From assembly GCA_021740785.1 (NCBI GenBank), contig JAIOZI010000051.1, forward strand, positions 1 through 36,726: a stretch of DNA of 36,726 nucleotides, given 5' to 3'. The translations under genes and the position numbers were made by a program. This DNA comes from Melioribacteraceae bacterium (GTDB lineage: Bacteria > Bacteroidota > Ignavibacteria > Ignavibacteriales > Melioribacteraceae). The notes under the pieces were generated by a model. That model did no database searches and had not been told where the DNA came from. It worked only from the letters and a program-made list of their open reading frames with translations. Below, piece by piece: positions 7,736-30,393 of this stretch (its first letter is position 1; each line of letters begins with the position of its first letter).

Positions 7736-7831
7736 AATTCCAAAATTTCTATATGGTTAAGTATTTGATATTTCTCAACTTACAAATTGTCTGCCCGAAG
7801 GGCAGATTTTCCAATGGAAAATCTGGGTTTA
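7736..7831 (+). repeat. Dispersed hairpin repeat, copy A (long form)
   Basis: It contains two adjacent hairpins, TGCCC-GAA-GGGCA (7792-7804) and CAGATTTTCC-AAT-GGAAAATCTG (7803-7825). They are preceded by about 55 bp that match the reverse complement of 33826-33888 almost base for base. A perfect 12-bp inverted match, ACAATTTGTAAG at 7701-7712 versus CTTACAAATTGT at 7779-7790, suggests a second, inverted partial copy just upstream. Confidence 0.85.
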
Positions 7832-20167: not shown

Positions 20168-20221
20168 AAGTTTTTAGTTTAAGATGGCTGAGTGATTCCG
20201 ATGTACAACGTCGGAATTGCC

Positions 20222-20269
20222 GAAGGGGACGAAAACCCGCTTTCCGGAATGAGTGGTTTTCGTCCCTTC
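20222..20269. repeat. Palindromic repeat with GGGGACGAAAA arms, intergenic copy
   Basis: GAAGGGGACGAAAACC (20222-20237) pairs with GGTTTTCGTCCCTTC (20255-20269) with a single bulged G around a 17-nt loop. No T run follows, so it is not a standard terminator. The inner arm AGGGGACGAAAA recurs inside the type IX cargo gene at 26325-26336. Confidence 0.75.
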
Positions 20270-20427
20270 CAGTCCTCAAATTAATTTTATTATTGTGCTC
20301 AATGATAATAATTCCATGAATATGATTAGAAGCCGCACAAATATTGTGAGTTTCTTTCGTGCAGTTATGGTTCCCGCAAAAAAAACCGCTAATATTAAGT
20401 GAATTCAAAGAATAATTTAAAGTAAAT

Positions 20428-25269: not shown

Positions 25270-26535
25270 ATGACAGTCAATTCTAAATTGATGATAATGC
25301 TTTTAATACTTTTCTCGTCGGCATTCTTTGAAAAAATCAATTGCCAAAATTGGGAAAAGATTCCAAATATTGATTCAACGAATGTTTTTTCAATTGTAAA
25401 TCATGAAGGTACACTTTACGCATGTACGATCGACAGGATTTACAAAAGTCACGACGGCGGAGAATCGTGGAGTAATACCGGAGGTTTACCGGTTGAATCT
25501 GCAATCAACAAATTGTTTTCTCATAATGAATTTTTGTATGCCGGGACAGATGGAGACGGGGTGCTGCGGAGTTCGGACGGCGGTGAAAACTGGCAGAGTT
25601 TCAGTAACGGTCTTTCGGGATTCGCAAAACGTATTACGGATTTTACATATCTGGGGGATTCAATTTACATTGGTACAAACGGCAGTGGAATTTTTACAAT
25701 AAACTCTGTCAACCCAAGTTCCTGGTCGCCGTTCAATGAAGGTCTATTTCAACTCGGCGTTTCTGCTTTGTCGTCCGTTGGAGAGAATTTAATTGCAGGC
25801 TCCGGACTGTGGCTTCAGCGGCGTTCCCGTAATGCCTCCTCGTGGAGTGTATTATCGATTGATTCTCTTGGATATCAGAGAATGATCTACGATATCCTTC
25901 CGGCTGGAGATGACATTTTTGTCGGTACCAACAAAGGAATTTATAAAGGGAAACTTAATGGCAAACCATTTATGCCGGCTGATATTTCAGTCTTCCCCGG
26001 AAGAGATATTGTTGCGATAACTATTTATAAATCGCGACTACTTGCCGGACTGTATTTTAAAAGTGAGCACTGGATGTTTTCTTCGGATAATTTTGGGAAA
26101 AGCTGGGAAATACAGGCGCATGAATTTTCATCATTATGGGATTTGTTTGTCAACGGTGATCGTTTATGGGCTTGCAGGTCGGATGGTTTATGGTATTTAG
26201 ATTTGGATGTTTGGACTGATATCGGGACTCCCCCTACTCAACCTGCTGAATTTAAATTAAGCCAAAATTACCCGAATCCGTTTAATCCAACTACAACTAT
26301 AAAATATTCAATCCCATCGTCTGTAGGGGACGAAAATTTTCGTCCCCTGCATATGGTAACGCTGAAAGTTTATGACATTCTCGGCAGCGAAGCGGAGACA
26401 CTGGTAAACGAATTGAAAGCACCGGGGAATTATAAAGTGGAATTCGATGCTACGAATCTTGCCGGCGGAATTTATTTCTACCAACTTCGTGCGGGCAATT
26501 TTTCCGATGTGAAGAAATTTATTCTACTAAAGTGA
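25270..26535 (+). CDS. Secreted beta-propeller (BNR/Asp-box) protein with type IX sorting domain
   Basis: The 421-residue product has a signal peptide (about 1-25) and a sialidase-like propeller over about 28-320 with Asp-boxes such as KSHDGGESW and RSSDGGENWQ. The last 90 or so residues are a type A sorting domain for the type IX secretion system. It begins SQNYPNPFNPTTTIKYSIP and ends LAGGIYFYQLRAGNFSDVKKFILLK. It should cross the outer membrane through that system and be attached or released at the surface; the ligand is unknown. Between SIP and VTLKVYD there is an extra segment SSVGDENFRPLHM encoded by a 24-bp perfect palindrome. AGGAG precedes the ATG. The gene stands alone. Confidence 0.88.
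   Translation: MTVNSKLMIMLLILFSSAFFEKINCQNWEKIPNIDSTNVFSIVNHEGTLYACTIDRIYKSHDGGESWSNTGGLPVESAINKLFSHNEFLYAGTDGDGVLRSSDGGENWQSFSNGLSGFAKRITDFTYLGDSIYIGTNGSGIFTINSVNPSSWSPFNEGLFQLGVSALSSVGENLIAGSGLWLQRRSRNASSWSVLSIDSLGYQRMIYDILPAGDDIFVGTNKGIYKGKLNGKPFMPADISVFPGRDIVAITIYKSRLLAGLYFKSEHWMFSSDNFGKSWEIQAHEFSSLWDLFVNGDRLWACRSDGLWYLDLDVWTDIGTPPTQPAEFKLSQNYPNPFNPTTTIKYSIPSSVGDENFRPLHMVTLKVYDILGSEAETLVNELKAPGNYKVEFDATNLAGGIYFYQLRAGNFSDVKKFILLK
26323..26350. repeat. Palindromic repeat inside the type IX sorting domain
   Basis: AGGGGACGAAAA followed directly by TTTTCGTCCCCT (26325-26348) is a perfect 24-bp palindrome with no loop. Outer bases G26323 and C26350 can also pair. It is read in frame as VGDENFRPL. 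The arm is shared with the intergenic palindrome at 20222-20269. Confidence 0.85.
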
Positions 26536-30337: not shown

Positions 30338-30393
30338 CCCGACGAGTTTTGTCGGGGCGAAGGGCAGATTTTCCAATGGAAAATCTGGGCTAA
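30338..30393 (+). repeat. Dispersed hairpin repeat, copy D with extra stem
   Basis: CCCGAC-(7 nt)-GTCGGG lies at 30338-30356. GGCGAAGGGCAGATTTTCC-AAT-GGAAAATCTGGGCTAA follows to 30393. The 10-bp core hairpin is perfect, identical to copy A. Confidence 0.8.

Follow-up and report, generated by a model that had tools for sequence, protein, structure and literature searches.

The analysed stretch of 36,726 nucleotides from a Melioribacteraceae bacterium (hereafter the window) contains at 25270-26535, on the plus strand, an open reading frame whose profile matches identify it as a 421-amino-acid cargo protein (P0001) with a C-terminal type IX (T9SS) type A sorting domain. The C-terminus scores 34.7 bits against Pfam PF18962 (cut-off 27) and 33 bits against TIGR04183 (cut-off 23), exceeding both curated cut-offs for such a domain. 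The extent of the domain (26269-26532, plus strand, YPNPFNP...FILLK) is based on the PF18962 match to residues 334-418, an alignment, an AlphaFold model and a PDB match. The best sequence match in the PDB is the T9SS substrate domain 8glj_D (E = 1.3e-4). A Foldseek search with the sorting-domain model gave no match at E ≤ 1e-3, the top match being the T9SS substrate complex 8glk_D with a weak E of 3.5e-3, and a plasmid search for the domain gave no match.

Within this domain lies a perfect 24-bp palindrome, AGGGGACGAAAATTTTCGTCCCCT (26325-26348), which is translated in frame and free of stops, just as an earlier note made from the sequence had reported. If one mismatch is permitted, the arms extend over 26322-26351. 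The palindrome is the core of a larger 28-bp GTAG...CTAC element (26323-26350, plus strand), which across its copies reads GTAGGGGACGAAAATTTTCGTCCCCTAC. The copy in the window, GTAGGGGACGAAAATTTTCGTCCCCTGC, has CTGC at its end in place of the CTAC of the other exact copies, so that one outer pair is broken. Alignment with paralogues that have the standard, REP-free loop reveals an insert of exactly 27 nt, i.e. the nine codons for VGDENFRPL, placed two residues past the IP of the first strand. In the AlphaFold model (mean pLDDT 82.4) the insert (residues 22-30) forms part of the turn joining the first two long strands, 11-18 and 31-39.

The element has the features of a GTAG-tagged REP, with GTAG at the foot of the hairpin and a short palindrome (28 bp compared with about 20-40 bp), and those of a double-foot REP, with GTAG...CTAC at its two ends. 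The turn joining the first two strands of this T9SS sorting domain carries an in-frame element of this kind. RAYTs (REP-associated tyrosine transposases) and their REPs were defined by Nunvar et al. 2010 (PMC2817692). The arm of the palindrome recurs in the window at 20222-20269, where the earlier note had placed an intergenic hairpin. The hairpin is real, with 12-bp arms GGGACGAAAACC / GGTTTTCGTCCC (20226-20266), but the site is not plainly intergenic: it is a long-form REP of the same family inside a decayed RAYT fragment on the minus strand (NHIHGIIIIEHNNKINLRTGRDEN..FRPLR, 20220-20327; tblastn E = 8.8e-5, genome search E = 5.4e-4).

The earlier note would have dropped its insertion idea if other cargo proteins with extra residues lacked palindromic DNA and the arm were not repeated in the genome; the arm is repeated, so the idea stands. 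The 20-mer core has eight exact copies in the 4.85-Mb source genome and the reversed control has none. Six of the eight are located in sorting-domain loops of cargo genes, at the same turn and in the same reading phase, one in a truncated RAYT gene and one in a RAYT remnant other than that at 20220-20327. Two further places carry the core with 2-3 mismatches, one in a frame-broken sorting-domain fragment (C13:101954) and one that is apparently unrelated (C79:40447). The degenerate pattern GTAGRG-N16-CYCTAC occurs at 12 sites in the whole source genome, comprising 6 T9SS loops (one of them cut by a contig start), 1 RAYT, 1 RAYT remnant and 4 others that have no open frame of 120 amino acids spanning them.

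The source genome encodes about 170 sorting domains, which at a quarter kilobase each amount by arithmetic to about 0.9% of the genome. In the TIGR04183 search 150 of 237 candidates were scored, the domain of the window lying outside the scored ones. Our survey covered the 1.57 Mb (of 4.85 Mb) around sorting domains, small overlaps included, and contained 156 of them. The turn carries 7-16 extra residues, and in one case 31. Among 22 loops with at least five extra residues, 11 are palindromic at p < 0.05 in codon shuffles, and three more (L138, L068:1000 and L073) belong to palindromic families or form a weaker hairpin, giving 14 by family; eight are not palindromic. The expectation that extra loop DNA would always be palindromic is therefore incorrect. 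The palindrome score reaches at most 5 among 127 standard loops, compared with 12 to 15 for the 28-mers.

The same turn accommodates more than one family. A second perfect 28-mer, GTAGGGACAAGTCGCGACTTGTCCCTAC, occurs in sorting domains of the source genome, and the F3 inserts (L045 and L110) consist of an inverted REP pair, GTAGAGCGAGATTTATCTCGCTC...GAGCGAACTAAAGTCCGCTCTAC, translated in frame; in the surveyed domains, three T9SS loops carry F3-type REPs. Nested forms occur as well, one with a CCTGCCTGCCGGCAGG palindrome at the centre of the first palindrome. On contig C68 (L116:1000-3600) two cargo genes separated by 2.3 kb have domains that are 95% identical; one domain contains the 28-mer as such, the other contains it with a second palindrome nested in its middle. 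A non-GTAG palindrome, F4 (CCCTCACCC...GGGTGAGGG, peptide LTRPSDTLSPRER), is present in two sorting-domain loops of contig C17 (L068:1050 and 6764), with no further copy in the surveyed 1.57 Mb.

On the side of the transposase, the core is carried in frame by a truncated RAYT reading frame (L008:1338-1739, contig C106), between MPNHVHG and the next block. The N-terminus of this frame is absent, and it reads FVRENP where the relative L148 has YIRQNP. Loss of this tyrosine would be inactivating by the known chemistry of the family, according to the available text of PMC6006769. Because of these two defects the REP family of the window core is, judging from sequence, probably no longer mobile in the source genome, where the RAYT copies found for this core are truncated or decayed only. 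The best NCBIfam model for the L008, C101 and C57 frames is the REP-associated tyrosine transposase NF047646, with 40, 65 and 67.5 bits, respectively, all below the cut-off of 80. The RAYT-like gene of C101 is intact and adjoins F3-type REPs. At this locus (L367:1230-2560) a gene of 234 amino acids is flanked on both sides by near-identical repeated blocks that contain GTAGAGCG-type REPs, and a long form found there, GTAGAGCCCGTCTGCC...GAGGCAGGC, is similar to the insert of 31 residues in the sorting domain of L138.

REPs are found inside RAYT frames of relatives and in several cases also alongside them. We read 21 of 29 given RAYT loci, the remaining 8 being without a PNHxH motif, and found palindromes in 20 of the 21 loops, a count made without shuffle control. 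A REP lying in frame between the HuH and Y parts of the RAYT gene, as is typical of RAYT subclass 2.4, is present for the window core in L008 (C106) and in L148 (G274). Among 18 RAYT loops with GTAG, 14 use the V phase and 4 the R-D phase. As both open phases are used there, the single phase in T9SS loops is not forced by the element. The T9SS cores are closer to the REPs at RAYT loci in the genome they come from than to those in other genomes (0.735 versus 0.656; 20 genomes, 2 of 5000 permutations), the RAYT loci being the retrieved subset and not the complete set. This match rests on 5 of the 20 genomes (0.96 or more), and in 9 of the 20 the match to the local RAYT loci does not exceed the average for the other genomes. 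A RAYT is present in 20 of 25 genomes with T9SS REPs and in 16 of 25 matched others, so that its presence hardly distinguishes the two groups. On contig C56 of G280 (L376), a RAYT match is surrounded by fourteen GTAG REPs of several types within about 1.5 kb.

We then compared G106, a relative of another genus in a single contig. Here GTAGRG-N16-CYCTAC has 23 sites, 13 in T9SS loops and 10 without an open frame of 120 amino acids. The core GACAAGTCGCGACTTGTC accounts for five T9SS and one intergenic site, GGACGAATATATTCGTCC and its variants for five and none, ACAACTCATGAGTTGT and its variants for two and three, GAGACTCCCTGTTGGGTGTCTC for one and none, and GAGACTTGATTAATCAAGTC with one variant for none and five; one further intergenic site, with 5 of 14 pairs broken, is apparently a chance match. 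The GAGACTTGATTAATCAAGTC core and its variant would place a TGA in the phase used by the T9SS loops, and the absence of this core from these loops corresponds to p of about 0.005 (hypergeometric arithmetic on the 22 clear sites). In two neighbouring domains of G106 (L357) the REP-coded LSL directly continues into RVYD (VGTSRDLSLRVYD), so that the REP supplies part of the second strand.

Neither the source genome nor G106 has a coding 28-mer outside T9SS or RAYT among all its 28-mer sites. The location mainly outside genes that is typical of GTAG REPs is not observed, as 4 of the 12 sites in the source genome and 10 of the 23 in G106 are without a long open frame. The high copy number of such REPs, usually over 100 per genome in the available text of PMC2817692, is not seen either, with 12 and 23 double-foot 28-mers, other forms being uncounted genome-wide.

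Looking across the class, the F1 28-mer is present with up to two mismatches in 6 of 294 genomes, the source genome included. Its 13 places outside the source genome are 9 T9SS loops, 1 RAYT and 3 that are non-coding or unclear, and there are paired changes among F1 28-mers, e.g. GTAGTGGACG...CGTCCACTAC. A GTAG...CTAC pattern at the right distance past NPFNP matches in 30 of 391 genomes of the class, with a control of 0. A double-foot palindrome is present in at least 22 of these 391 genomes, judged by eye among the matches listed, with 3 of 14 pairs broken in three of the 22 (G388, G033 and G150). Of the other matching genomes G377 has a single-foot hairpin and seven (G203, G315, G105, G118, G004, G227 and G246) no palindrome. 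The cores at the turn differ widely among genomes (GGGATATATCCC, AAGGCATGCCTT, TCGCCGCGGCGA, CAATTCATGAATTG and others), i.e. in other genera GTAG...CTAC palindromes with unrelated cores occupy the same turn. The element begins on a codon boundary with GTA in all 40 parsed T9SS matches. These 40 were taken from 79 listed, leaving aside most same-genome repeats of one core and nearly all non-palindromic matches, and they comprise 34 28-mers, four 29-mers, one element in a shifted register (G211) and one that is not palindromic (G079:C3). Thus the proposal of the earlier note that palindromic elements spread into a tolerant loop of a multi-copy domain is borne out by several families and in other genera, though not for every enlarged loop; what it lacked was the link to GTAG REPs and RAYTs and the recognition that the supposedly intergenic copy lies in a RAYT remnant.

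The share of 28-mers found in T9SS loops varies. Counted as sites coinciding with listed T9SS matches, and therefore as lower bounds, it is at least 9 of 16 in G260, 7 of 23 in G019, 3 of 8 in G280, 2 of 13 in G199, 0 of 5 in G039 and 0 of 15 in G274, most contexts in the last two being unread. Twenty sites from such genomes read in context comprise 5 T9SS loops, 1 RAYT loop and 11 sites without a long frame; the remaining 3, one of which is not a palindrome, fall in long frames of other proteins. Two palindromes of G333 (L387 and L396) lie in frame and in V phase in long frames of other proteins. In view of these varied shares and of the G333 copies, the niche is uneven, with occasional insertions into other proteins.

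Beyond the class, the core type GTAGRGACNNGGCATGCCNNGTCYCTAC was followed over 84,980 species genomes, yielding at least 116 loci with 123 sites among the matches listed. The loci were read in two rounds, first 80 and then all 116 with a slightly wider RAYT rule. Eighty-six of the 123 sites are without an open frame of 150 amino acids, 23 lie in such frames (unchecked as genes), 10 in RAYTs and 4 in sorting-domain loops, the latter all in V phase, from three Ignavibacteria MAGs (L290, L313 and L325) and one MAG of another phylum, Candidatus Neomarinimicrobiota (L319). GTAG REPs of this kind are widespread and mostly extragenic, and the sorting-domain niche is seen in this lineage and in at least one case outside it.

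Taken together, the palindrome most likely belongs, as a double-foot REP tagged with GTAG, to the short non-autonomous elements of the RAYT (TnpA_REP, IS200/IS605-like) system, and elements of this kind have repeatedly settled in the T9SS turn. RAYT enzymes would have processed or moved such REPs as single-stranded hairpins, and selection would have removed most insertions elsewhere in coding DNA, while the sorting-domain turn may tolerate extra residues in the phase reading V(G/E)......(S/P)L. Because the domain is present in about 170 copies and is common to many cargo genes, occupied copies could multiply along with it and coding-compatible cores could accumulate in its loops. Against this reading, the two F4 loops hold a palindrome without GTAG, and mobility is deduced from sequence comparison rather than from observed movement.

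Alternatively, a palindrome could have been acquired a single time by an ancestral sorting domain and now spread only by duplication and exchange of the domain, with no present part for the RAYT, which we consider improbable. Consistent with such a history, REP-bearing domains cluster on a loop-free tree (4 changes versus a mean of 10.8 and a minimum of 8 in 300 shuffles); the tree of the source genome contains 152 of the 156 domains found and, having few columns, has low resolution, with 7 of 149 inner branches starred. The insertion point in G106, identical to the codon for several cores, and the truncation of the RAYT frame bearing the window core fit it as well. Given the clustering, domain duplication matters and may explain much of the spread. 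As the sole cause, however, inheritance with the domain was rejected based on the contrast between core and flanks, on mixed families and on empty paralogues. Among T9SS copies of one core in the source genome (10 pairs) at least 26 of 28 bases agree, while the adjacent 11 bp agree by 0.62 and 0.53; in G106 (21 pairs of one core) the adjacent 11 bp agree by 0.75 and 0.50, and flank identity there is independent of the core (0.64 for same-core and 0.63 for different-core pairs). Core identity thus ends abruptly at the element ends, the DNA touching them being 50-75% identical. Domains that are 84% identical can carry different REP families, and the REP-bearing L133 has empty closest paralogues on the tree, with L073 and L138 short of exactly 27 nt at this site. 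Moreover, cores vary among genera and in some genomes match local RAYT REPs.

The simplest reading of these alignments is that the 28-bp element itself is the unit of spread or exchange, since a conversion tract or simple descent would bring the flanks along. The constant insertion point with different cores in G106 fits exchange at a fixed site, which is unproved. One could speculate, with little confidence, that a RAYT or similar enzyme swaps the GTAG-to-CTAC stretch as a cassette at a fixed codon site in sorting-domain loops, which would then form a dedicated coding niche whose phase-specialised cores (stop-free, with an S/P-L end) diverge from the intergenic ones and keep rewriting the surface loop. 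If so, a surface loop of many secreted proteins would be continually rewritten.

It is highly unlikely that the insert is primarily a selected functional element, either an mRNA hairpin or a peptide aiding secretion, with a secondary likeness to REPs. In its favour, the RNA hairpins of three inserts are strong (-18.7 to -25.3 kcal/mol, z about -6.5) and T9SS loops use a single reading phase, but 137 of 152 domains of the source genome do without any palindrome family, the peptides vary among genomes, and like elements occur within transposase genes and between genes. Chance, a general possibility in an AT-rich genome with many sorting domains, is ruled out for practical purposes by the counts, by reversed-pattern controls of 0 and by the lack of a comparable score in any standard loop.

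Palindromic repeats translated in frame inside proteins have reportedly been described by Ogata and Claverie as Rickettsia palindromic elements (RPE), which are also cited in PMC3733652. Unlike RPE, which occur in many unrelated genes, the REPs described here have GTAG ends, a link to RAYTs and one recurrent host domain, and neither the source genome nor G106 shows in-frame palindromes in many unrelated genes. REPs inside genes, RAYT genes included, are already published. Quentin et al. 2018 (PMC6006769) describe double-foot REPs and, for subclass 2.4, in-frame REPs inside RAYT genes; the elements studied here resemble these in being bounded by GTAG and its complement CTAC, and in their presence in the RAYT loops. 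In the available sections that paper deals with REPs in RAYT genes and cites insertions in unrelated genes, sorting domains being unnamed there, whereas here the T9SS loop is the main coding host, both in the source genome and in G106. The F3 inserts, two REPs in inverted order, are similar to the REP doublets termed REPINs in the available part of PMC6006769 but lie within coding DNA. Di Nocera et al. 2013 (PMC3733652) report GTAG REPs inside ORFs and propose that they are tolerated in loops or linkers. The intragenic REPs in the accessible text of that study are scattered over unrelated genes, many of them for DNA repair, in contrast to a single domain loop that is occupied here repeatedly, in fixed phase and across genera. 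A full-text whole-word search found no publication combining T9SS and RAYT, and the top matches of our literature searches held nothing joining sorting domains with palindromic repeats, most subscription literature being outside the scope of both. Each of the elements belongs to a kind already known, but the recurrent host loop in the sorting domain and the phase rule appear to be new.

The REP origin explains odd peptides in sorting tags, such as VGDENFRPL here and VETGHAPSL and VGTSRDLSL in relatives, which annotation would otherwise take for protein sequence under ordinary selection. The loop provides a natural and countable case of mobile DNA turning protein-coding. Many unrelated REP cores share one loop, a single genome offers both occupied and empty paralogues, and the core with the stop codon serves as a built-in control, so that the way in which palindromic repeats get into proteins and stay there can be tested directly. 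The window contains a second repeat, the palindrome CAGATTTTCCA[A/T]TGGAAAATCTG at 7803-7825 and 30365-30387, with CGAAGGG just before both copies; it has 24 copies in the surveyed 1.57 Mb.
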